From contig QIAU01000201.1 of NCBI GenBank assembly GCA_003225055.1, positions 1 to 49,977 of the forward strand: 49,977 nt of DNA, read 5' to 3'. The notes under the pieces are model-generated. The model was given only the letters and a program-made list of their open reading frames with translations. It was not told the DNA's origin and made no database searches. Position numbers and translations under genes: made by a program. The DNA comes from Acidobacteriota bacterium. Lineage in GTDB: Bacteria; Acidobacteriota; Terriglobia; Terriglobales; Acidobacteriaceae. This document shows positions 6,596 to 49,807 of the stretch, in pieces (position 1 is the stretch's first letter; each line of letters starts with the position of its first letter).

Positions 6596-8293
<1,698 letters not shown>

Positions 8294-8605
8294 GTGTTCG
8301 ATTAAGTGTTCACCGCCGAGTGTGTTGCCTTTGCCGGGATGCTATTCTCTGTGACCGAGGAAGTTGACGCCTCCGCAGCAGACATGCCAGACCTGATCCG
8401 CCCTACGGATCGCGTAGCCGAAATTCCTAATTTCCTTACGCCTGGCCACTGAGGTGAAACTGACATAAGCTAAGACCGTGTCCAGAAGGCAGACAACGCC
8501 TCTCAGCGAAATCAGCTGGGATTCGGTTCAGAGTACCAGCCCTGATCGATTATTAGGTTACCTCCTTTTTGTTTACTCGAAACCAGAAACTCGAAACTAG
8601 AAACT
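8294..8605. other. Intergenic stretch pyrG-kdsA, no gene seen
   Basis: 312 bp with no credible reading frame, tRNA or terminator. The only structure is a 14-bp tandem repeat at its right end, listed separately. Confidence 0.6.
8576..8603 (+). repeat. Tandem 14-bp repeat abutting the kdsA start
   Basis: CTCGAAACCAGAAA is followed directly by CTCGAAACTAGAAA (13 of 14 identical), ending 2 bp before the kdsA GTG. It replaces any recognisable SD there. Confidence 0.7.
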
Positions 8606-9454
8606 GTGGGTGAAGGCTTCCAAGTCGGCAACGCGGTCATCGGCGGAGGCAATCTCTTCCTCATCGCCGGTCCATGCGTGATCGAGAGTGAAGACCACGC
8701 CATCCGCATGGCCGAGATCATCAAAGGTGTGACGCGTTCGCTCGGCCTCCCTCTCATCTTTAAAGCCTCTTACGACAAGGCGAACCGGACCTCGATCAAG
8801 AGCTACCGCGGTCCGGGATTAACGCAAGGATTGCTGGTGTTGGGTAAGGTTCGTGACCAGATGCAGGTTCCGATCCTGACCGACGTGCACGAAACTATTG
8901 ACGTCCCCAAGGTGGCGGAGGTCGCGGATATCCTGCAGATTCCCGCATTCTTGTGCCGCCAGACCGACCTGGTGGTCGCGGCCGCCAAGAGCGGGCGCGT
9001 GGTCAACATCAAGAAAGGCCAATTTGTTTCGCCGTGGGATATGAAACATGCCGTCGACAAGTGTCGCGACGTCGGGAACTCTCGCGTGTTCGTCACCGAG
9101 CGCGGCTCCAGCTTCGGCTACAACAACCTGGTAGTTGATATGCGATCACTGGCCATCATGCGGAATTTCGCCCCAGTCGTCTTCGACGCGACGCACTCTG
9201 TCCAGTTGCCCTCAGCGTCGCGCGGGGACGACGAGCAACCGGCATCCAGCGGCGGCCAACCTGAATTCATTCCGGTGCTGGCCCGGGCTGCGGTTGCGGC
9301 GGGGGTCGACGGTATTTTCATGGAAGTCCACGACAATCCCAAGCAGGCCAAGTCGGACGGGCCCAACGCGCTGGAATCCACCAAGCTACGCGGCGTGCTC
9401 AAAGAATTGTTGGCCGTACAAAGGGGATTGGCTGAAGCCGCTCGCGCCATCTGA
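8606..9454 (+). CDS. kdsA: 3-deoxy-8-phosphooctulonate synthase (Kdo-8-P synthase)
   Basis: 282 residues, normal length. It condenses phosphoenolpyruvate with arabinose-5-phosphate to Kdo-8-phosphate, the committed step to the inner-core sugar of lipopolysaccharide. Family marks are [16 protein letters not shown] near the N-terminus, [50 protein letters not shown] and [20 protein letters not shown]. The start is the GTG at 8606; no SD is seen because a tandem repeat sits immediately upstream, but the N-terminus matches the family, so the start is probably close. Convergent with a PagL-like gene; kdsD follows 3 kb downstream and a broken kdsC lies at 20135-20765. Confidence 0.96.
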
Positions 9455-20844: not shown

Positions 20845-23800
20845 ATGACCTCCCTTCCTCTCAGTCTCGGGTGGGCCCACCCGCTGGTTCAAGAGTGGTT
20901 TGTGGGCCGATTCGCCACGCCCACAGAACCTCAGGAGCAGGGTTGGCCGCACATCCTGGCCGAGCGAACGACTCTCATCTCAGCGCCCACCGGCTCCGGA
21001 AAAACTCTGGCAGCTTTCTTGGCGTGCATCGATCGCCTGGTGCGGAAAGCTGTGGCAGGAAACCTTCAGGACCGAACGGAAGTCCTCTATATTTCGCCGC
21101 TCAAAGCGTTAGGCAACGACATCCAGAAGAACCTCGAAGTTCCTCTCGGTGAAATTCTGGGGATGGCCCTCGAGCGCGGTCTGCTCATGCCGGAGATCCG
21201 CTCTGCTGTCCGCACCGGCGACACGCTCATGCATGAGCGCCGGGCAATGCTGAAGCGGCCGCCGCACATTCTGGTAACCACTCCGGAATCGCTCTACATC
21301 CTGCTTACCGCCGAGAGAAGCCGAGCCATCCTGCGCGATGTCGAAACGGTAATCGTCGATGAGATCCATGCCGTCGCGGACGATAAACGTGGTGCACACC
21401 TGACGCTTTCGCTGGAAAGGCTGGAAGCTCTCACGAACCACCCGCCCGCGCGCATCGGACTTTCTGCAACGCAAAAACCAATAGAGGAAGTGGCCCACTT
21501 TCTCACGGGTAGCGGCCGACGCGATCCGGTCATCGTCAACGTCGGCCACAAGCGCGATCTCGATCTCGCCGTGGATACTCCCGCCAGCCAGCTCGGCCCC
21601 GTGGCCAGCAATGAGATGTGGGACGAGATTTACGACCGCATTGCCGAGCTGGTTCGCCAGCATCGCTCGACCCTGGTTTTCGTCAACACGCGTCGGCTGG
21701 CGGAACGCGTCGCACACCATCTGGCCGAGCGGCTCGGCGAAGAGGCAGTAGCAGCTCACCACGGCAGCCTGTCGCGCAAGCTCCGCTTAGCCGCCGAGAA
21801 GAAGCTCAAGAACGGCGAGATCAGCGTACTGGTTGCTACGGCCTCGCTCGAGCTCGGGATTGATATCGGTACGGTCGATCTGGTCTGCCAGCTCAGCTCG
21901 ACGCGCGCCATTGCTGTGGCTCTGCAGCGGGTTGGCCGTTCCGGTCACTGGCGCGGTGCTGTTCCCAAGGGTCGAATATTTGCCATGACCCGAGACGACC
22001 TGCTGGAATGCGCAGCCCTGGTGCGAGCCATCCGGCAGGGCGATCTCGATCGCCTGATGATTCCGGAGTCTCCGCTGGACGTGCTGGCCCAGCAGATTGT
22101 CGCCTCCTGCGCCGCAGAGGAGTGGCGCGAGGATGATTTGTTCGCCTTAATCCGGCGGGCTTATCCCTACCGCAACCTGCCTCGTGAAGTTTTCGATTCG
22201 ATCGTCGTGATGCTGTCCGATGGGATTGCTGCTCGCCGTGGACGCTACGGCGCCTATTTGTATCGTGATCAGGTGAATGGCCGGCTGCGCGCCCGCCGTG
22301 GCAGCCGTCTGGCTGCCATTACCAGCGGCGGTGCTATTCCAGAGACTGCCTTGTACACGGTGGTTGCCGAACCGGAAGGCGTCACGGTCGGCACGGTTGA
22401 TGAAGACTTCGCAGTAGAGAGTCTGGCTGGCGATGTCATGCTGCTGGGCAATACGTCCTGGCGAATCCGTCGGATTGAAGGAAAGACAGGGCGCGTAATT
22501 GTCGAGGATGCCCATGGCGCGCCCCCGGGAGTTCCTTTCTGGCTGGGCGAGGCGCCTGCGCGCACAGCGGAACTGTCCGCGCATGTCGCCAACCTGCGTC
22601 AGGAGATCAGCGATCGGCTTGCTGGTGTCTCGCCGGTAGGCTTCTCGCCCACTCAGCAGGTCGTCGCCGAGACGATTTCTTGGCTGAAAGCGGAATGCGG
22701 TCTGGATGACCCCGGAGCCGAACAGATCGTCGAGTACATCCTGCAAGGACGGGCGGTCCTTGGTGCTGTGCCCACTCAGGGAACAATCATCGCTGAGCGC
22801 TTTTTCGATGAAGGCGGCGGAATGCAGTTGGTCATCCACGCGCCTTTTGGCGGTCGGATTAACAAAGCCTGGGGACTAGCCCTGCGCAAGCGTTTCTGCC
22901 GCAGCTTCAACTTCGAGTTGCAAGCGGCTGCCACCGATAACGGACTTAACATTGCTTTGGGCGAGCAGCACAGTTTCCCTCTTGCCGATGTCTTCCAATT
23001 TCTTCAGCCGGAAACGGTGCAGCCGATTCTCGAACAGGCGGCACTCGCAGCGCCCATTTTCGGCACCCGTTGGCGCTGGGATGCCACTCGCGCGCTGGCC
23101 CTGTTGCGCTTTCACGGCGGCAAGAAAATTCCACCGCAAATCCAGCGCATGCGTTCCGACGACCTGCTGGCATCGGTTTTCCCCGACGTGGCCGCCTGCC
23201 AGGAAAACATCGTCGGCGACATCAAGATTCCCGATCACCCGCTGGTGAGCGAAGTCATGAAGGATGTGCTCACTGAGGCGATGGACATTGAAGGGCTGCG
23301 CGGCGTGCTGCGCGGCATCTCCGACAGCGCCATTCGTTGCATTGCCGTCGACACGCCCATCCCATCCCAGTTCTCACACGAAATCCTCAATGCGAATCCA
23401 TATGCGTATCTCGATGACGCTCCATTAGAAGAACGCCGCGCTCGCGCTGTGGAGATGCGTCGCATTCTGCCGGAATCTGTGTTACAGGAGGTCGGCAAGC
23501 TCGATCCCGCAGCTATTGCGCAGGTGCGCGAAGAAGCCTGGCCCGACATCCGCGACCGCGATGAGTTGCATGACGTCCTGCAAACCCTGATCGCGGTTCG
23601 CGAAAGCAGCCTCGATCATGGCGACATCCTGAGCGGAGGGGACGGCCAGGAGCCTGCCCTGAGCGATCCCGAGCGGAGCGAAGGGGGGCGACGGGATCTC
23701 GCGCGCAGCGATTCGGACACGTGGTCGACCTATTTCAGCGAACTCGCTCGCGAAGGCCGGGCTACCGTCGCCACGGTCGACGGCGGGACGCCCCCGGAGA

Positions 23801-25233
23801 AGGCGTCAAGACACCGCCGCTACTGGGTTGCTGCCGAGAAGGCGAAAAGCTTTACCGCCCTCTTCCCCTCGGCGAAATTCGAGACGACAATCGCAGAAAT
23901 TGAGACCACGACACCGTCACCGGACAACGCTCTTTTGGCTCTGGTCACCGGCTGGATGGCCCACATCGGTCCCGCAACCGCAGCACAGTTAGGCGACACC
24001 CTCGGTCTCCCTGCGGCGGAAATCGACAAGGCGCTGCTCCGACTCGAAGCCACAGGCGCCATCCTCCGCGGCAAGTTCACCGACCCCTGCATCCGGGACA
24101 CCGAGTGGTGCGATCGCCGTCTGCTGGCCCGCATCCACCGGCTCACCCTGGGTACTCTCCGAAAGCAGGTTGAGCCAGTTACAGCGGCGCAGTTTATGCG
24201 CTGGCTCCTGCGCTGGCAGCACATCGCGTCAGGCACGCAAGTCCTCGGGGAGCGCGGCACGCTGGAGGTTTTGCGTCAGCTACAAGGTTTCGAAGTTCCA
24301 GCGAATGCTTGGGAGCGGCAGATTCTGGCGCGCCGGATTGCTGACTACGACCCCAAGATCATCGACCAGCTCTGCCTCACAGGCGCCGTGGGTTGGGGAC
24401 GCCTCTCTCCGCACCCGGCCACGCTCGAAGATACCGCCGAAGGCAAGCGGCGTGTCATCCCGACCAGTGTTGCACCGATCACATTCTTTGTCAGGGAGGA
24501 AGCCGAGTGGATGACGCCGCGTCACCCCGGCACAGACCTGCCGGAGGAAACGCGAGGTCTGAGCCACGGCGCGCGCCAGGTGCTCGATTTCCTGCGCCAG
24601 CGAGGCGCATCCTTCTTTGCTGACATCGTGCGCGGCACCGCCCGGCTGAAATCAGAGATTGAAACCGCGCTTTGGGAACTGGTGGCAGCCGGCATCGTTA
24701 CCGCCGATGGCTTTGACAACCTGCGCTCTCTAATCGATCCCAAGCGCCGTGCCGGACAAGGACACGGCCGCACCTCTCGCCCCCGCCACAGCTCGGGCCG
24801 CTGGTCGTTGCTCTATACCGATCAGATCGCAGACCGGAACAAGGCGGTCGAAGCGACCTGCTGGATGATGCTCAAGCGTTATGGCGTGGTGTTTCGCGAT
24901 CTGCTCGTGCGCGAAACCATCCTGCCAAAGTGGCGAGAGCTGCAGATAGCTTTCCGCCGTCTCGAAGACCGAGGCGAGATTCGCGGAGGGCGCTTTGTTG
25001 ACGGTTTTCTGGGCGAGCAGTTTGCTTTGCCGGTGGCGGTGGAGTCGTTGCGTGCTGCCCGCAAGATGGAGCCCACAGGAGAGACATTAATCCTTTCCGC
25101 GGCTGATCCGCTGAACCTGGTTGGAATCCTGGTGCCGGGAGAGCGCGTGCCAGCAATTTCCGGCAAAACAGTTAGCTTTCGTGACGGAGTGGCGGTCCGC
25201 AACGAGGACGCTTACCGAGCTGCAGGCGACTAA
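20845..25233 (+). CDS. lhr: Large helicase-related protein Lhr (DEAD/H helicase)
   Basis: 1462 residues, close to the size of full-length bacterial Lhr. Seen: motif I APTGSGKTLAAF, Ia region YISPLKALGNDIQKNL, DEIH box (VIVDEIHAVADDK), motif III GLSATQKPIEEV, motif VI region ATASLELGIDIG and QRVGRSGHW, then the long Lhr-specific winged-helix/core region (for example GVTVGTVDEDFAVESLAGD) and the bacterial C-terminal extension. Lhr is a 3'-to-5' helicase active on DNA-RNA hybrids, linked to DNA repair. The ATG at 20845 lacks an SD. At residues about 933-953 an in-frame insert rich in DPERSEGG arises from a REP-like repeat (23661-23700). The stop overlaps the 3' end of an opposite gene. Confidence 0.95.
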   Translation: MTSLPLSLGWAHPLVQEWFVGRFATPTEPQEQGWPHILAERTTLISAPTGSGKTLAAFLACIDRLVRKAVAGNLQDRTEVLYISPLKALGNDIQKNLEVPLGEILGMALERGLLMPEIRSAVRTGDTLMHERRAMLKRPPHILVTTPESLYILLTAERSRAILRDVETVIVDEIHAVADDKRGAHLTLSLERLEALTNHPPARIGLSATQKPIEEVAHFLTGSGRRDPVIVNVGHKRDLDLAVDTPASQLGPVASNEMWDEIYDRIAELVRQHRSTLVFVNTRRLAERVAHHLAERLGEEAVAAHHGSLSRKLRLAAEKKLKNGEISVLVATASLELGIDIGTVDLVCQLSSTRAIAVALQRVGRSGHWRGAVPKGRIFAMTRDDLLECAALVRAIRQGDLDRLMIPESPLDVLAQQIVASCAAEEWREDDLFALIRRAYPYRNLPREVFDSIVVMLSDGIAARRGRYGAYLYRDQVNGRLRARRGSRLAAITSGGAIPETALYTVVAEPEGVTVGTVDEDFAVESLAGDVMLLGNTSWRIRRIEGKTGRVIVEDAHGAPPGVPFWLGEAPARTAELSAHVANLRQEISDRLAGVSPVGFSPTQQVVAETISWLKAECGLDDPGAEQIVEYILQGRAVLGAVPTQGTIIAERFFDEGGGMQLVIHAPFGGRINKAWGLALRKRFCRSFNFELQAAATDNGLNIALGEQHSFPLADVFQFLQPETVQPILEQAALAAPIFGTRWRWDATRALALLRFHGGKKIPPQIQRMRSDDLLASVFPDVAACQENIVGDIKIPDHPLVSEVMKDVLTEAMDIEGLRGVLRGISDSAIRCIAVDTPIPSQFSHEILNANPYAYLDDAPLEERRARAVEMRRILPESVLQEVGKLDPAAIAQVREEAWPDIRDRDELHDVLQTLIAVRESSLDHGDILSGGDGQEPALSDPERSEGGRRDLARSDSDTWSTYFSELAREGRATVATVDGGTPPEKASRHRRYWVAAEKAKSFTALFPSAKFETTIAEIETTTPSPDNALLALVTGWMAHIGPATAAQLGDTLGLPAAEIDKALLRLEATGAILRGKFTDPCIRDTEWCDRRLLARIHRLTLGTLRKQVEPVTAAQFMRWLLRWQHIASGTQVLGERGTLEVLRQLQGFEVPANAWERQILARRIADYDPKIIDQLCLTGAVGWGRLSPHPATLEDTAEGKRRVIPTSVAPITFFVREEAEWMTPRHPGTDLPEETRGLSHGARQVLDFLRQRGASFFADIVRGTARLKSEIETALWELVAAGIVTADGFDNLRSLIDPKRRAGQGHGRTSRPRHSSGRWSLLYTDQIADRNKAVEATCWMMLKRYGVVFRDLLVRETILPKWRELQIAFRRLEDRGEIRGGRFVDGFLGEQFALPVAVESLRAARKMEPTGETLILSAADPLNLVGILVPGERVPAISGKTVSFRDGVAVRNEDAYRAAGD
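23661..23700 (+). repeat. REP-like element inside lhr
   Basis: GATCCCG (23665-23671) and CGGGATC (23692-23698) flank GAGCGGAGCGAAGGGG. The element is in frame and adds about 20 residues (SDPERSEGGRRDLARSD) to Lhr that break the family alignment. Confidence 0.65.
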
Positions 25234-37966: not shown

Positions 37967-38152
37967 CCAGCGCTCGGTCGTCGCCTCCTTGAATGCTTTG
38001 GTCCAGTGCTGTCCGGAGAAAAGTTGACGAGATCTAGCCAAGCACGTGATTCGGAAGAGCTTAGGTTCAGTCTATGCCGGGAACGATTTGAATTCAATTG
38101 GCCGAAAATCGAGGGGTTTGGGGGCATCCTTGGAGGCTTGCGACAATGGCCC

Positions 38153-39244
38153 ATGAATCTTGGCCAAACCGTCTTCTCGCAATTGATCGAGCGTCTGCCG
38201 CACAAAGAGTTTCAGAAATGCGTAGCTTGCTACCACGGCAGTTCCTATCTAAAGAACTTTTCTTGTTGGGACCAGTTTCTCGCGATGGCCTTTGCCCAAT
38301 TGACTTATCGCGAGAGCTTGCGCGACATCGAAGCCTGCCTTCGCTCTCTGCAGAGTAAGCTCTATCACATGGGATTCCGTGGCAGGGTGTTTCGCTCCAC
38401 TCTTGCCGATGCCAATGAATCAAGAGACTGGCGAATCTATGCCGACTTTGCTCAGGTTCTCATCAGCATCGCCCGTCCTTTGTATGCTGACGATCCCTTG
38501 GGGGTGGAGTTGAGTGAAAATCTGTATGCCTTGGATTCCACCACCGTCGATCTCTGTCTGTCGCTGTTTCCCTGGGCAAGGTTCCGCCGTTCCAAAGCCG
38601 CAGTCAAGATGCATACCCTGCTCGACCTGCACGGCAGCATTCCCACGTTTATCCGCATTACCGAAGGCAAAACCCACGACGTCAATATCCTGGATCAGTT
38701 CATTCCCGAAACCGGTTCGTTCTATGTCATGGATCGCGGCTGCGTCGATTTTGCACGCCTCTACCGCTTCACGCTCTGTTCCGCATTCTTTGTCGTACGC
38801 ATCAAAGAGAATGTCTTACTCCAGCGGCGCTACTCCCACTCGGTGGACAAGTCCACCGGTGTACGTTCCGATCACACCGTCATCCTTACCGCGATCGAGT
38901 CGGCCAATGTATATCCAGAGACACTCCGACGTGTGCCCTACTTCGACGTCGAGAACCAAAGGCGCTTGAAATTTCTGACCAATAACTTCTTTCTTCCCGC
39001 ACTTACCATTGCAAGAATCTACAAGTCCCGTTGGATGGTGGAAATCCTTTTTCGATTTATCAAGCAGAACCTCCGCACGAGATTCCTATTGTCCTCAGCT
39101 ATCGGTTCTGGCAAGCCGAGTTCTGCCTTACCCTCTTGCTGCCGGGGCGGTTTACTGCTAAGGAGATGCCGTAATGAAGCCCATGTCTGCAGCCGTCCCC
39201 GGAGGGCATCGCCGAAGATGGCATCGCGGTCGCGCAGCAGGTAG
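38153..39244 (+). pseudogene. IS4-family transposase, truncated at the C-terminus
   Basis: The family start at ATG 38153 (MNLGQTVFSQLIERLPHKEF) is used; the frame is open from GTG 38006. Present: YRESLRDIEACLRSLQSKLY, first Asp in YALDSTTVDLCLSLFPWARF, second Asp in FYVMDRGCVDFARLYRF, and the Glu in YKSRWMVEILFRFIKQNL. Similarity stops at about 39076; the normal IKQHLKIKSFYGT... C-terminal part is replaced by unrelated sequence read antisense to transposase debris. All three DDE residues are present, but the ~80 C-terminal residues are missing, so it is probably inactive. It lies 40 bp after the toxin gene. Confidence 0.85.
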
Positions 39245-42737: not shown

Positions 42738-44252
42738 ATGAGCCAGACGAGCAAGCCCAAGAGCGAGACCAAGCCTGTCAGCAAGAGCTTCCCTGCCCCG
42801 GTGTATGCCGAGACCGTGTTGATGGTGAACTTCGAGGACGCCAAGAAATATTTCCTGGAGGCTTTGTTGGAGATCCACTACGCGCACACCCTGATGCTGG
42901 CGCGCCAGAGGATCATCGCCGCCGCCGATGCCAAGAAGTGTCTGCAGGCACTGGACGCGCTGGACCGCAGGGGTATCACTGCGGCCGTCTATGACGGCCG
43001 TTGCGAAGACCTCTTCTTCTATATCGAAGAGCAATTGGCCAAGCAGATCGACGCCGAGACCGCCGGCAGGATGCACACGGCGCGCAGCCGCAATGACATC
43101 GGCCTCACTCTCTACCGCATGGGCCTGCGGCGCGAGGTATTGAAAATGGTCGAAGCCGTGCGCAACCTCCGCGGGCAATTGCTGGCTCTGGCCGAGGCCA
43201 ATCTGGAAACCGTGATGCCCGCCTACACCCACACCCAGCCGGCCCAGCCTACCACCTTGGCGCACTACCTGATGGCGGCAGTGGAAATCTTGCAGCGCGA
43301 CACCCAGCGCCTGCGCGCCGCCTTCGCCACGGTGAATCGCAATCCCCTGGGCGCCTGCGCCATCACCACCACCGGCTTCCCCATTGACCGTGAATGCACT
43401 GCGCGCCTGCTTGGCTTCGAGGGCCTGCAGATCAATTCCTACGGCGCCATCGCCGCCATCGACTACCTGGCGGAAGCAGCTTCCGCGGCGGCCGTGGCCA
43501 TGGTCAACCTGGGCAAGCTCGTGCAAGACCTGCTGCAATGGTGCACCAAGGAGTTCGGATTCCTGCGCCTGGGCGATCCCTTCGTGCAGGTCAGCAGCAT
43601 CATGCCGCAGAAGCGCAACCCAGTTTCCTTGGAGCACACCCGCATTCTGGCCAGTAAGGCGCTGGGCCAGGCGCAGGCCATCCTCACCTGCGCCCACAAC
43701 ACCCCCTTCGGCGACATCGTGGACAGCGAAGACGACTTGCAGCCCCTGGCTTTCTCCATGTTCACCGACGCCGAACGAGCTCTGCGCCTATTCGCCGGAC
43801 TCATGGGGCAGTGTGATGTGAGGGTGGAACGCCTGCGCCAGGCCGCCAATGACAGCTTCCTGACCGTCACCGAGTTGGCCGATACCCTGGTCCGCCAGGA
43901 GGGTCTGAGCTTCCGCACTGCCCACAAACTAGTTTCCGAGGCGGTCAAGGCCGTCGGCCCGACGTACCAGGCGCAGCGAGTGGTGGACGAGGTGCAACGG
44001 CTGGCGCCCAAGGCCATCGGACACTCCCTGCGCACGGCCCCGGGAGAGCTGCTGCGCGCCCTGGACGCGGAGAACTTTGTGCGGGTGCGCAGCGTGGTGG
44101 GCGGGCCCGCGCCGGATACGGTCAAGGCCGAGATCACGCACGCACACCACGAGTTGGCGGAGATACAAGCCTGGCTGAAGGGAAAATGGGAGCTGCTGGA
44201 ACGCTATCCGCAGCTCATTCGCAAAGAGTTGGCCGCCATCCTCAAGGCATGA
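42738..44252 (+). CDS. Argininosuccinate lyase-family lyase (ArgH-like)
   Basis: 504 residues, of the aspartase/fumarase superfamily. Present: HTARSRNDIGLTLYRM (ArgH reads HTGRSRNDQ), YTHTQPAQPTTLAHYLMAAV, GACAITTTGFPIDRECTARL, and the signature SSIMPQKRNPVSLEHTR with its catalytic Ser loop. All members release fumarate from an adduct. It lacks the usual ArgH opening (LWGGRF...), has an extra ~35-residue Lys/Thr-rich N-terminus, and the GxxGxxG region differs, so it may not be the arginine enzyme; ArgH paralogues acting on other aminosuccinate adducts are known. No arg genes are near. It follows a TonB receptor. Start has no clear SD; an internal start is possible. Confidence 0.85.
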   Translation: MSQTSKPKSETKPVSKSFPAPVYAETVLMVNFEDAKKYFLEALLEIHYAHTLMLARQRIIAAADAKKCLQALDALDRRGITAAVYDGRCEDLFFYIEEQLAKQIDAETAGRMHTARSRNDIGLTLYRMGLRREVLKMVEAVRNLRGQLLALAEANLETVMPAYTHTQPAQPTTLAHYLMAAVEILQRDTQRLRAAFATVNRNPLGACAITTTGFPIDRECTARLLGFEGLQINSYGAIAAIDYLAEAASAAAVAMVNLGKLVQDLLQWCTKEFGFLRLGDPFVQVSSIMPQKRNPVSLEHTRILASKALGQAQAILTCAHNTPFGDIVDSEDDLQPLAFSMFTDAERALRLFAGLMGQCDVRVERLRQAANDSFLTVTELADTLVRQEGLSFRTAHKLVSEAVKAVGPTYQAQRVVDEVQRLAPKAIGHSLRTAPGELLRALDAENFVRVRSVVGGPAPDTVKAEITHAHHELAEIQAWLKGKWELLERYPQLIRKELAAILKA

Positions 44253-45125: not shown

Positions 45126-46919
45126 TTACACATCCAGCCCAATCGACCTCATCAGCGCCAACCCGTTGCTCTTCGTGACCACGCCTTCCCGCAGTTTGTA
45201 ATCGAAGGACATGCGTCCATTGTCAAAATCTTCTTGAAAATGGACGTTGTGTAGTTGACCATTCAGGGGGCCGCCGATGTCAACGAGCGCCAGATCGTGC
45301 GTGCTCACCAATCCGATAGCCCCACGATTCAGCAGAGCGCAAAGCACACCCTCCGCACCGATACGGCGATCATTTGAGTTTGTACCTTGCAACAGTTCAT
45401 CCAGCAGGAATAGCAACGGCGGGTCACCGCCTGCAAGGTCGAAGAGCTTGCGCAACCGGGTGATCTCGGCGTAAAAGCGCGAGCTTCCCTCCCGTAAAGA
45501 ATCATTGATACGGATGCTAGCGCCCACTTGCACCGGCGTCAGTCGGAGACTGCGCGCCCGTACCGGCGCACCAGCCATCGCCAGTACAGCGTTGATTCCT
45601 ACTGTGCGCAGCAGCGTACTTTTTCCCGACATATTCGACCCGCTTACCAGTAGGACACGGGCACCATCGAATAGGCGCACATTGTTACGAATGCAGGCTC
45701 CTGCGGGGATAAGCGGATGTCCGATCTCCGCGGCGTTGAAACATGTTGCACCTTGGACAAACTCGGGAAACGGATCGCCTGGATGCTCATAGCTGTACGT
45801 GCCCAAACATATCAGTGCCTCAATCTCGGCAATAGCGCTCAACCATGAAGCCACCGCATGGCCATGGGCACGTCGCCAGCGTTCTGCCGCAAACGCCACC
45901 TGTATCGAATACATCAGAGGAAGATCAAGCATGCCCACGATCAGGTTTCTGCGCGAATCGCTCAAATCAACGATGGTTTTCAGACGGGCAATAGCAAAGG
46001 AACTCGTATGTCCGTGAGACGAGAGGTCATGTTGGAGCGACTTCAGCCGGGGTGAAGAGAATGCGTGCCGTTCGACTCGCGCCAACACGCCTGAGAGCAA
46101 GCCCAAATCACGGAACGCGTGCTCGGAGCCATGCAAGACGTTTTCCAAAGAGTTCCCTATGCGATATCTAATGATCGCCTCGACCGCAAGAATCACGATC
46201 AGTGGCGCAGCGATCCCGAAATATCCCCAGACGACGGCGCCCGCAATTGCTGAGATGCTGAGGATGACGCCAAACCAGCGAACCCACTCCGGCTTCATTT
46301 GGTTCGGCGCTTCCGCCCAGTGCAACAATGCTTCGGGACTCACCCCAACACCTGCGTCCTCGCCAAGTACTGCGAGGTCTTCCTTCAGATCGAGTTGATC
46401 GCGCAGCTCACGAACCGCAGCATGCCTCTCCACAATCTCATCGACAGCCGAAGGCGAGAGCAGCCATTTCGCGAGGGTATCCTCGCCCATGCGCGTACGC
46501 GCAGTTGAGAGGAGTTCGAACAAACCGCCTCGGCCAAATAAATCCAGATCGGCTGCGTACACATGGTGAGAGTCGCTGAAGCGTTCGCCTGTCTGTCCAG
46601 CACCTGCGCAACGGTCTTCGATCCGAGCCAGGCCGCCACGATACCAGGCGACCGCGCGCTGAGCGAGGTCTCGGGCTCGCAAAGTGCGTGAATGATAAGC
46701 TGCAATACCCACGAAGACGCTCAGGGGAAGCACCATCCACCAAGGCGAAAATGCATGCTCTTTGAGAGATTCCCAAGCTGTCGCTGCTGCCATCAAGGCC
46801 AATACCAGGCGAATGTTTCCAAGGCGGATATGAATTGCCTCGCGCTGAGCGACACGGGATTCGCGATCGTTGAGACGTTGTCTATATTCATCAGCCGCTT
46901 GCACAGGTTGAGAATACAT
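45126..46919 (-). CDS. Membrane-anchored MutS-family ATPase
   Basis: 597 residues. The C-terminal half is a MutS core/ATPase: Walker A VLLVSGSNMSGKSTLLRTVG (about 427), the ordered RINDSLREGSSRFYAEITRL region, Walker B FLLDELLQGTNSNDRR (about 505) and STHDLALVD. The DNA-mismatch-recognition domain I (FxE) and connector are absent, so it is not mismatch-repair MutS. The N-terminal half has two membrane helices at about 35-75 (LVLALMAAATAW, WWMVLPLSVFVGIAAY) and two more at about 214-250 (FGVILSISAIAGAVVWGYFG). MutS paralogues with this membrane layout occur in several phyla but have no established role. The flanking genes give no clue. Start chosen as the first ATG; no clear SD. Confidence 0.9.
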   Translation of the reverse strand: MYSQPVQAADEYRQRLNDRESRVAQREAIHIRLGNIRLVLALMAAATAWESLKEHAFSPWWMVLPLSVFVGIAAYHSRTLRARDLAQRAVAWYRGGLARIEDRCAGAGQTGERFSDSHHVYAADLDLFGRGGLFELLSTARTRMGEDTLAKWLLSPSAVDEIVERHAAVRELRDQLDLKEDLAVLGEDAGVGVSPEALLHWAEAPNQMKPEWVRWFGVILSISAIAGAVVWGYFGIAAPLIVILAVEAIIRYRIGNSLENVLHGSEHAFRDLGLLSGVLARVERHAFSSPRLKSLQHDLSSHGHTSSFAIARLKTIVDLSDSRRNLIVGMLDLPLMYSIQVAFAAERWRRAHGHAVASWLSAIAEIEALICLGTYSYEHPGDPFPEFVQGATCFNAAEIGHPLIPAGACIRNNVRLFDGARVLLVSGSNMSGKSTLLRTVGINAVLAMAGAPVRARSLRLTPVQVGASIRINDSLREGSSRFYAEITRLRKLFDLAGGDPPLLFLLDELLQGTNSNDRRIGAEGVLCALLNRGAIGLVSTHDLALVDIGGPLNGQLHNVHFQEDFDNGRMSFDYKLREGVVTKSNGLALMRSIGLDV

Positions 46920-47376
46920 CAGGTACTTTGAGGGCGAGGTGGGGAGCGTTTTTAGCCAGCCTTGCGCTCCGAAACGATGGACTGCCTCCGGTCAGCCTCT
47001 TTGGGGCGACCCCGGCAGCGCATTCGCCAATCCGCGCGCTTCCGTCGACGCCAGCGCACGCTGACGGACGCGTTCGTGATTGGGTTTGTGACGTAGTAAC
47101 AGTTCAGGCATCCCTGCCTCCTAACCGCTGACAAATTGAGACGAATACGTCAACTTAGACTGGATGATTGCGAGAACCGCTCGCAAAATTGCCGGCGAAC
47201 TATGTTTCACCGCACACCTCCTCCTCCTGACGGACTGATTCATATGTGGCCGCAATCGATGGCCTTATAATCGCCAATTGCCTACACTGCATTCCAGCAG
47301 GGGTGACTACCTGGTCTGTACGACTCCAAGGTTGCTCAGCCGTAGCGCACACGGAAGAGGTTCGCACATAACGCGG
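46920..47376. other. 457-bp gap between the MutS-like gene and the peptidase
   Basis: Divergent intergenic region; no RNA gene or family recognised. It should contain both promoters; I cannot place either with confidence. Confidence 0.5.
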
Positions 47377-48782: not shown

Positions 48783-49277
48783 ATGCCCAGACCAAGAGGA
48801 AGTGCCGATCTGCTGGAAGACCGGCGGCGGCGAGCTTTGGCCTTAGTGGATTCCGGTTGTTCACTCAATGAAGCGGCGCGGCGCATTGGCTGCGGGGCCA
48901 GTTCAGTTATGCGCTGGTACCATGCCCGGCGGCGGGGCGGAGAGAAGGCATTGCGGGTTCGCTTCTCCCCGGGGCGACCGCTCAAGTTGCGGCCGAAACA
49001 GCTCAAGCGCCTGATCCAGCTGCTGCTCAAAGGCCCGATGACTCGCGGCTACCGCACGAACCTGTGGACGACGGCGCGCATCGCCCGGCTCATCGCGGAG
49101 GAGTTCGGCGTCGACTACCACCCCAATCACATGGGTCGGTTGATGCATCGCCTGCAATGGAGTCATCAGAAACCGGAACGGCGTGCCATCGAGAGAAACG
49201 AGAAACAGATCGAGCAATGGAAACGCCAACAATGGCCGCGGATAAAAAAAAAGCCGCTCGGTTGGGCGCCCATCTAG
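48783..49277 (+). CDS. IS630 transposase, frame A (N-terminal)
   Basis: 164 residues to the stop at 49277; the useful part ends at the slippage site at 49253. It has the helix-turn-helix/homeodomain-like half of IS630 transposases (ALALVDSGCSLNEAARRIGC, SSVMRWYHARRRGG; and a PLKLRPKQLKRLIQ helix, then YRTNLWTTARIARLIAEEFG). On its own it could bind the ends and act as a regulator. The A-run at 49244-49252 followed by G gives A AAA AAG in frame, a canonical -1 slip site, joining it to frame B. Confidence 0.88.
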   Translation: MPRPRGSADLLEDRRRRALALVDSGCSLNEAARRIGCGASSVMRWYHARRRGGEKALRVRFSPGRPLKLRPKQLKRLIQLLLKGPMTRGYRTNLWTTARIARLIAEEFGVDYHPNHMGRLMHRLQWSHQKPERRAIERNEKQIEQWKRQQWPRIKKKPLGWAPI

Positions 49278-49807
49278 TGTTTGCCGATGAGTCCGGGTTC
49301 CTGCTGATTCCCAACGTGGCCAAAACCTGGGCGCCGGTAGGTCAAACTCCTATTCATCGCCATGTCTATCGACGGGACAAAATTTCGGTGATCTCCGGCA
49401 TTTCGGTAAGTCCGAAACGGCAGCGGCTGAACCTCTACTACTACCTCTTCTATGACAATATCGGGCAGGAAGAAGTATGCCTGTTCCTACGCCACTTATT
49501 GCGGCATCTCCGGGGTCAGGTGATGGTCGTACTGGATAACTCCAGTACACACAAGGGCGAGCCTTTCCAAGAGCTACGCCACCAGCATCCTCGTCTGCAT
49601 ATGGAGAACTTCCCCTCCTATGCGCCGGAACTCAACCCGGACGAAGCCGTCTGGTCGCAAGCGAAACGGAAACTGGCGAATAGCTGCCCCAAGGACATCG
49701 ATGAGCTCATGGACGACATCATCGGATCGATCAACGGAATCAGAAGATCGCCGAGGAAGTTGCGGGCATGCATCGAGCAGTCCGAGTTACCTTCTTTTTT
49801 GCGCTAA
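49217..49807 (+). CDS. IS630 transposase, frame B (DDE domain)
   Basis: Frame open from 49064; the ATG at 49217 is the first plausible internal start, but the family normally makes this part by -1 frameshift from frame A at A AAA AAG (49247-49253). It holds all catalytic acids: HLVFADESGFLL (first Asp), VMVVLDNSSTHKGEPF (second Asp) and ELNPDEAVWSQAKRKLANS (Glu). Stop TAA 49807 lies 20 bp before the right inverted repeat. The transposase cuts and pastes at TA dinucleotides. Confidence 0.88.
   Translation: METPTMAADKKKAARLGAHLVFADESGFLLIPNVAKTWAPVGQTPIHRHVYRRDKISVISGISVSPKRQRLNLYYYLFYDNIGQEEVCLFLRHLLRHLRGQVMVVLDNSSTHKGEPFQELRHQHPRLHMENFPSYAPELNPDEAVWSQAKRKLANSCPKDIDELMDDIIGSINGIRRSPRKLRACIEQSELPSFLR

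Follow-up and report, generated by a model that had tools for sequence, protein, structure and literature searches.

MutS2 splits collided ribosomes, and several MutS subfamilies without domains I and II are described as uncharacterised (PMC12292046); MutS7 and MutS8 occur in giant viruses (PMC3749498). A precedent for MutS-like proteins acting on proteins is the proposal, cited in PMC9164220, that MutS variants assemble metalloprotein complexes. Here we describe a MutS-like gene at positions 45126-46919 of a 49,977-nucleotide stretch of DNA from an Acidobacteriota bacterium (contig QIAU01000201.1), which we call the window and which is the whole of contig C267 in a 301-contig draft genome. 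Its product belongs to a family of ATPases that hydropathy, charge and an AlphaFold2 (AF2) model consistently predict to be membrane-integral, a prediction that we regard as supported. The family is real, widespread and misleadingly annotated. A partial literature search found no description of a membrane MutS, which does not imply its absence in print, since Ogata et al. 2011 or Krishnan et al. 2020 (on ABC, or ATP-binding cassette, ATPase classes) may include the group.

The gene reads from an ATG at 46919 to 45126 on the minus strand as a single open frame of 597 codons, and the plus-strand frame across the same positions contains many stops. The start agrees with the family, as conserved N-terminal positions (P8, which is A here; E11; Y12; R15) begin just downstream of it. 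Two further MutS_V proteins are encoded in the host genome, a MutS1 (L001; a 985-amino-acid open frame, of which a 749-amino-acid fragment was analysed) and a MutS2 (L002; 823 amino acids with an Smr domain). The membrane MutS-like protein is hence an extra and not a substitute. Its features, including four predicted transmembrane segments (TM1 to TM4), are as follows.

45126..46919, minus strand: membrane MutS-like ATPase gene (P0001), 597 amino acids
46830..46907, minus strand: N-terminal helix, predicted cytoplasmic, residues 5-30; Y12 invariant, R15 almost so
46761..46829, minus strand: predicted TM1, about residues 31-53, in to out (hydropathy, AF2)
46680..46745, minus strand: predicted TM2, about residues 59-80, out to in; W61, P65, F69 and H76 conserved
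46365..46634, minus strand: conserved block ...LARxEDRWxGxGxxGERF...YAxDLDLFG...SLFELL... and start of MutS domain III, residues 96-185
46218..46286, minus strand: predicted TM3, about residues 212-234, within the domain III-IV stretch
46140..46208, minus strand: predicted TM4, about residues 238-260, with polar E247 in mid-helix
45786..45944, minus strand: lever helix region, residues 326-378, with an almost uncharged tip (333-345) and invariant W348 and R349
45138..45650, minus strand: MutS domain V (ABC-type ATPase), residues 424-594 (Pfam)
45615..45641, minus strand: Walker A, GSNMSGKST, residues 427-435
45474..45503, minus strand: signature loop, DSLxxGxSRF, residues 473-482
45366..45413, minus strand: Walker B and GTNSxDR, residues 503-518

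A contig scan returned at least 506 stretches encoding a relative at E <= 1e-3, some of which may be other MutS proteins. Locus analyses use the best 80 of these, which show 44-76% identity and come mostly from Acidobacteriota, with some from Pseudomonadota, Planctomycetota, Myxococcota and Binatia. Our main alignment (A2) holds 73 of these loci plus the window protein, 74 members in all, four having been dropped for length and L061, L095 and L101 by hand; L007 and L017 (internal stop), L016, L020 and L021 were left out of alignment A1. The initial annotation had read the ATPase motifs as complete, and they are invariant in 74/74 members: S426, G427, N429, M430, G432-T435, D473, S480, D507, E508, G512, T513, S515, D517, R518, T540, H541 and D542. 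The signature-loop serine, S480 here, acts in trans in MutS proteins. The presence of these composite-site motifs in every aligned member points to selection on the ATP cycle.

Pfam finds MutS_V in the window protein (E 4.9e-21, residues 424-594) together with a partial MutS_III (E 5.7e-8, residues 130-182), the latter at 33.8 bits against a cut-off of 34.1. Across the aligned members (E <= 0.01), MutS_V and MutS_III are each present in 74/74, while MutS_I, MutS_II, MutS_IV and Smr are each detected in 0/74; nor did Pfam report a KOW-type domain for the family. That the DNA domains go undetected by Pfam argues against mismatch binding. As controls in the same library, the genome's own MutS1, a fragment without its first part, shows domains II, III, IV and V, and its own MutS2, which belongs to a clamp-bearing family and has an Smr domain, matches neither MutS_IV nor MutS_III. 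All NCBIfam matches of the window protein fall below their cut-offs (MutS 98.7 against 480 bits, MutS2 77.6 against 400, KamC 69.1 against 300). An identity as KamC was rejected by the same curated cut-off.

Evidence for the membrane segments consists of Kyte-Doolittle (KD) hydropathy in 19-residue windows, charge and the AF2 model, with no trained topology predictor among the methods. Averaged over the family, hydropathy peaks at residues 33-51 (1.68), 56-74 (1.87), 215-233 (2.03) and 236-254 (1.59), the next being the lever at 327-345 (1.46). A hydropathy window of KD >= 1.6 is reached at TM1 in 59, TM2 in 63, TM3 in 72 and TM4 in 45 of the 74 members; for the front pair the figure is 71/74, for the internal pair 73/74 and for both pairs 70/74, and the lever (320-380) also reaches this value in 23/74. 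AF2 places helices at residues 5-54, 59-100, 212-234 and 238-262. Uncharged stretches (at most 10% D/E/K/R per position over at least 10 residues) are found at 38-49, 56-74 and 215-232, but this criterion alone is non-specific, because it also picks two lever stretches (333-345, 368-377) and two in domain V (422-432, 439-453). Among the controls, the genome's own MutS2 has no hydropathy window at 1.5 and its MutS1 fragment has one at 1.55. Six of 14 MutS1/MutS2 proteins, these two included in the set, have a window of at least 1.6, five of them one and the sixth (L025) two about 255 residues apart, and adjacent hydrophobic pairs occur in 0/14. The initial annotation's four membrane helices on a MutS-type ATPase are thus borne out by prediction, and a topology lacking membrane segments was not obtained. 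A relation to SLATT membrane effectors was rejected (14.3 against 26.3 bits in Pfam, 15.1 against 45 in NCBIfam; 0/74 members at E <= 0.01).

Lysine plus arginine per sequence amount to 5.24, 6.38, 2.16 and 3.53 on the proposed inner flanks of the four segments; the corresponding values for the two hairpin tips, themselves shorter, are 0.72 and 0.45. This distribution of positive charge favours a topology in which both ends of the protein would be cytoplasmic. Conservation in the membrane stretches amounts to 1.76-2.23 bits, compared with 3.17 for domain V, and hydrophobicity is kept more than identity. One family member (L018:1483-3510, minus strand) carries tandem GIAP-type repeats of about 10 residues inserted in the linker that precedes TM3.

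The full-length AF2 model (mean predicted local distance difference test score, pLDDT, 89.9; predicted template modelling score, pTM, 0.89; for the N-terminal 384 residues alone, 92.4 and 0.89) consists of a MutS core and two helix pairs. According to VIA-align, the MutS/MutS2-type core (MutS domains III-V) extends from residues 113-118 to 597. It superposes on MutSbeta (Z 31.8, root-mean-square deviation (rmsd) 3.9, 400 residues, model 118-594), on E. coli MutS (Z 31.4, rmsd 4.2, 408 residues) and on T. thermophilus MutS2 (Z 28.9 and rmsd 5.6 over 367 residues, with model residues 118-597 matching chain residues 1-484). The N-terminal half gives a score that is modest for a helical model (116-384 on E. 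coli MutS 268-570; Z 11.3, rmsd 4.3, 201 residues). By the domain limits stated for E. coli MutS (I, 1-115; II, 116-266; III, 267-443 and 504-567; IV, 444-503; PMC12292046), residues 1-115 occupy the place of domains I-II, and TM3-TM4 fall within the III-IV stretch. The initial annotation had proposed that two helix pairs replace the mismatch-recognition domains; this holds for the front pair, whereas the second pair lies within the stretch of lever and clamp.

From the start of the core to the HPL motif there are 282 residues (118-400), versus 289 in T. thermophilus MutS2 (1-290), and since about 51 of the 282 are TM3-TM4, there is less room for a clamp. A forced profile alignment of low confidence pairs a family motif at about 282-291 with the MutS1 motif downstream of the clamp; about 36 residues of MutS1 are left without a counterpart, and TM3-TM4 lie upstream of these. 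The hairpin may replace lever or clamp, although MutS_IV is missing not only from the Pfam results of the family but also from those of the genome's own MutS2. In fold searches, residues 1-112 matched no other fold, an absence that carries no weight. A viral fold library returned Tetraselmis virus 1 proteins named MutS subfamily 7 and 8 (E 4e-17 and 8.5e-15), from which we draw nothing because the rmsd values are 21 and 14.

The gene is unevenly distributed. In a first survey, a family-type match (E <= 1e-40) was present in 18/61 genomes, counting the genome itself, two end-of-contig fragments and two genes with internal stops; the sole same-genus genome surveyed had none at this threshold. 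Among Acidobacteriota, 99/297 genomes have a match at E <= 1e-60: a single one in 94, one gene apparently in two pieces in four, and two copies in one (G054). In the phylum of an Isosphaeraceae genome (G351; Planctomycetota), 27/148 genomes are carriers, that genome included. In the class of a Steroidobacter carrier, the only match among 184 genomes is the carrier itself, which suggests transfer. Of seven carrier genomes checked, six also encode a MutS2-like protein, as judged by score and length.

More distant homologues from Bacteroidota and Staphylococcus are 19-28.5% identical to the window protein. A tblastn search of plasmid records gave 27 records, four of them with at least 80% query coverage, all Bacteroidota (26.8-28.5% identity), the staphylococcal ones being more distant; ribosomal or housekeeping operons on three of the "plasmid" records make these look like chromosome pieces. 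The annotated Bacteroidota and Staphylococcus homologues that we inspected in these records are named MutS mismatch-repair proteins. For eleven distant members (four Bacteroidota, two Staphylococcus and five IMG/VR sequences) we looked for hydropathy windows of KD >= 1.5. All eleven have an internal window and 8/11 an internal pair, L120, L121 and L122 having one internal window each. At the front, two windows are found in six, one in three and none in two. The internal pair occurs in all four Bacteroidota members, three of which also show two front windows, and in five staphylococcal sequences, each with a single front helix. It is likewise present in the IMG/VR sequences L123 and L124, whose front part shows no window. 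What stays constant is thus the internal hydrophobic segment, while the number of front helices ranges from none to two.

Small plasmids of S. epidermidis and S. capitis (17-64 kb; L116, L134, L135) carry a stand-alone membrane-type MutS-like gene of 536 amino acids, and a staphylococcal copy of chromosomal type (L117, L133) lies between abc-f and tsaD. SAOUHSC_02274 is presumably the S. aureus homologue. In Acidicapsa dinghuensis, two overlapping tandem MutS_V genes (L129:5354-7045 and 7042-8679, minus strand; 563 and 545 amino acids) encode proteins with altered Walker motifs (GANQGGKS and GPNHGGKT), NE in place of DE and no paired membrane segments, with one hydropathy window near the called start of the second gene. 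An adjacent pair of MutS-like ATPases is also mentioned in Ferroplasma (PMC5473848).

For the trees, every fourth A2 row (19), L019, the eleven distant members and 14 MutS1/MutS2 proteins were used, MutS1 and MutS2 being the sole other subfamilies. On the ATPase segment, one branch with support 96/98.6 splits the 31 membrane-type rows from the MutS1/MutS2 rows (7+7), with long branches and odd composition flagged; in the full-length tree the same split has support 100/99. A placement among ordinary MutS1 or MutS2 was not obtained, and this identity was rejected on Pfam domain content and the ATPase tree.

The observations comprise the motifs, the Pfam domain content, the hydrophobic pairs, the predicted core fold, a branch apart from MutS1/MutS2 and a gene for which no conserved partner was found; from these we infer the topology, the dimer, the loss of the clamp, the coupling of the levers and a membrane client rather than DNA. 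The reading we tentatively prefer, although at somewhat less than even odds, is a dimeric ABC-type ATPase on a MutS core whose lever arms end in the membrane, such that ATP would set membrane helices in motion. A MutS2-like core in the cytoplasm, made up of domain III, the levers and the domain V ATPase, would carry one membrane hairpin within its III-IV stretch and, in the majority of lineages seen, another hairpin ahead of the core, with both ends in the cytoplasm and outside loops a few residues long. Two copies would probably pair through composite ABC-type ATP sites, as other MutS proteins do. Binding and hydrolysis of ATP would open and close the levers, which would end in the bilayer instead of in a DNA clamp, and the cycle might move the four-helix membrane bundles against one another or around a membrane-bound client. 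This arrangement is favoured by the invariant ATP motifs, the lack of detected DNA domains, the constant internal segment and the hydrophobic, almost uncharged lever tip (333-345). Furthermore, the position of the internal segment, constant in mid-protein while the front pair varies, suggests that it is part of the moving machinery rather than a mere anchor. The broader proposal, that a deep cross-phylum branch of MutS has left DNA and become an ABC-type ATPase dimer with levers in the bilayer, its cycle moving membrane helices in transport or in the remodelling of lipids or membrane proteins, is doubtful, and we advance it as a conjecture.

Several observations weigh against such a coupled membrane machine. 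TM4 reaches a KD of 1.6 in just 45/74 members. In the window protein itself, TM1 peaks at 1.46, and the lever segments 326-344 and 355-373, for which burial is expected in a MutS-type core, exceed 1.6; four helices are therefore read from the family and the model, because the hydropathy of this one protein cannot tell TM1 from lever helices. The residue match of TM3-TM4 to lever and clamp is loose, a linear offset straddling the end of the core and the start of the lever. The absence of MutS_IV in Pfam is no proof that the clamp was lost, given that the genome's own MutS2 is likewise without a match. A plain anchor without coupling fits most of the same facts, and a core that binds nucleic acid or ribosomes is compatible with all data presented here.

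The most probable of the alternatives is a MutS2 relative tethered to the membrane, where it would act on ribosomes or nucleoprotein, its helices serving only to localise the core. We regard it as unlikely, though worth keeping in mind. The core aligns with MutS2 from the first MutS2 residue onward, MutS2 itself acts on ribosomes, and a clamp could lie below the reach of Pfam, as the MutS2 control illustrates. Moreover, in two seemingly chromosomal staphylococcal records the homologue lies between an ABC-F gene and the tsaD operon. However, the translation neighbourhood is limited to those two records: in a Bacteroides record the homologue is near a ribosomal-protein operon, with two unnamed genes between and on the opposite strand. 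The lack of an Smr or KOW-type domain in Pfam and the MutS2-like protein already present in most of the carrier genomes checked also speak against such a role. One of the staphylococcal sequences, L133 (MT880872.1), is filed as a phage genome and has rex, tsaD, tsaB and ilvD in the order known from the S. aureus record, so that host DNA seems to form part of it.

Next in rank comes a membrane-linked DNA task such as uptake, segregation or defence, the function that the initial annotation had put forward and one that we hold to be improbable: the link to the membrane is supported, whereas none of our findings points to a role with nucleic acid. Such a task would fit the MutS ancestry, the patchy presence among Acidobacteriota with none in the same-genus genome, and the membrane-type homologue on small staphylococcal plasmids. 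Against it, PADLOC gave no match to the window protein at E <= 1, and its matches among neighbours (E <= 1e-10) are scattered over four families upstream and 37 downstream, one member each. Pfam detects no DNA-binding domain (MutS_I, II and IV included, although the genome's own MutS2 also lacks IV), and viral records are few, comprising five IMG/VR contigs, refound with a second query, and five phage records, one of which carries rex, tsaD and ilv genes and thus apparently some host DNA.

A further point against such a task is that no recurring neighbour was seen. In the window, a plus-strand lyase resembling argininosuccinate lyase ends at 44252 and a plus-strand S41 peptidase begins at 47278, so that the MutS-like gene stands alone and, as the initial annotation remarked, no repair gene is adjacent. 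Across the family, the nearest open reading frame (ORF) is on the same strand in 43/76 cases upstream and 40/77 downstream, about what chance gives, by a longest-ORF heuristic rather than a gene caller. Among the flanking ORFs scanned (57/76 upstream and 58/77 downstream, those omitted being mostly short), no Pfam family recurs above 3/57 upstream or 2/58 downstream. An all-versus-all BLAST of ORFs from the 80 loci and the window likewise found no conserved partner, which the initial annotation had proposed to look for; its clusters are the gene itself, frames inside the gene, or families such as TonB-type proteins, which show no consistent distance or strand. Several neighbours are common to L041, L043 and L046, and one adjacent gene to L063 and L105. 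The window's lyase and S41 peptidase have no match at E <= 1e-10 in L005-L124, and arginine genes by a Parabacteroides homologue hence look coincidental. Long upstream open frames had raised the suspicion of gene fusions; the one scanned (L081) has no Pfam domain at E <= 1e-4. Because the gene stands alone and no partner that it would need has been seen, the family lends itself to direct testing.

Slightly less probable still is a pump resembling an ABC transporter or flippase, built on the MutS core, in which the eight helices of a dimer would form the path. This idea draws on the ABC-class ATPase with its composite-site motifs, on the four helices per chain with long cytoplasmic extensions, and on a polar residue in TM4. 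At this position (residue 247; window 46179-46181), the 85 rows have E in 43, N in 15, Q in four and R, D and H in one each, 65/85 together, and otherwise V (5), G (4), F (4), A (3), L (3) and T (1); it is polar in 59/74 aligned members, N in two Staphylococcus members and in three IMG/VR sequences clustering with these, whereas the four named Bacteroidota members have T, F, F and F. Foldseek also returned weak rows for the N-terminal half with CydDC and other exporters, but at E 0.064 and above these are at chance level. Of the regions compared, moreover, TM3 and TM4 show the lowest conservation (1.84 and 1.76 bits). For a known ABC exporter, eight helices would be a small number. Least probable of all is a passive anchor that holds an ordinary soluble-type MutS-like ATPase at the membrane without coupling, for although the helices keep hydrophobicity over identity and front-helix number differs among lineages, the hydrophobic segment is constant in mid-core, not terminal, in the Acidobacteriota, Bacteroidota and Staphylococcus members examined.

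Elsewhere in the window, transposase genes are found at 48783-49807 (helix-turn-helix and DDE_3 in overlapping frames) and 38006-39244 (with DUF4372 and DDE_Tnp_1), which we take to be IS630-like and IS4-like DDE, respectively. A large helicase of Lhr type (20845-25233, 1462 amino acids) lies about 20 kb from the MutS-like gene.

Annotated relatives in Bacteroidota and Staphylococcus are called mismatch repair, yet what is conserved is the layout of an integral membrane ATPase in which no DNA-binding domain is recognised; in the NCBI entries named "MutS family DNA mismatch repair protein" from these groups, the hydrophobic segments fall at corresponding places in the alignment. Should the levers indeed act in the membrane, MutS would be added to the ABC-class ATPases known to power membrane processes, and the annotation of many genomes would have to be revised. 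Compared with MutS2, the family shares a core that begins at domain III without I-II, model residue 118 superposing on MutS2 residue 1, but it has membrane hairpins, lacks Smr, carries GTNSxDR where the MutS2 rows have the consensus SATDPEEG, and branches separately. With MutS1 and MutSbeta it has in common domains III and V and all ATPase motifs, whereas it lacks a Pfam-detected mismatch-recognition, connector or clamp domain and has membrane helices instead. KamC, a MutS-like reactivase ATPase, is similar in the ATPase domain, yet the score is far under its cut-off.

The probable literature label is the uncharacterised subfamily MutS8, with which we compared the family by its published description. 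We take IPR007696 to be the MutS core and IPR000432 the MutS C-terminal domain. Like our family, MutS8 (a subfamily of Ogata et al. 2011) is defined by domains III and V only, as relayed in PMC5698495. Two Cardinium proteins assigned to it, CAHE_0017 and CAHE_0267, have the MutS core (IPR007696) and C-terminal (IPR000432) domains with a P-loop fold, and the account of them is, as far as it was available, silent on internal membrane helices (PMC5698495). It does report predicted signal peptides in both, taken as a sign of secretion (PMC5698495), and these "signal peptides" could be the first membrane helix, TM1, of the family described here.

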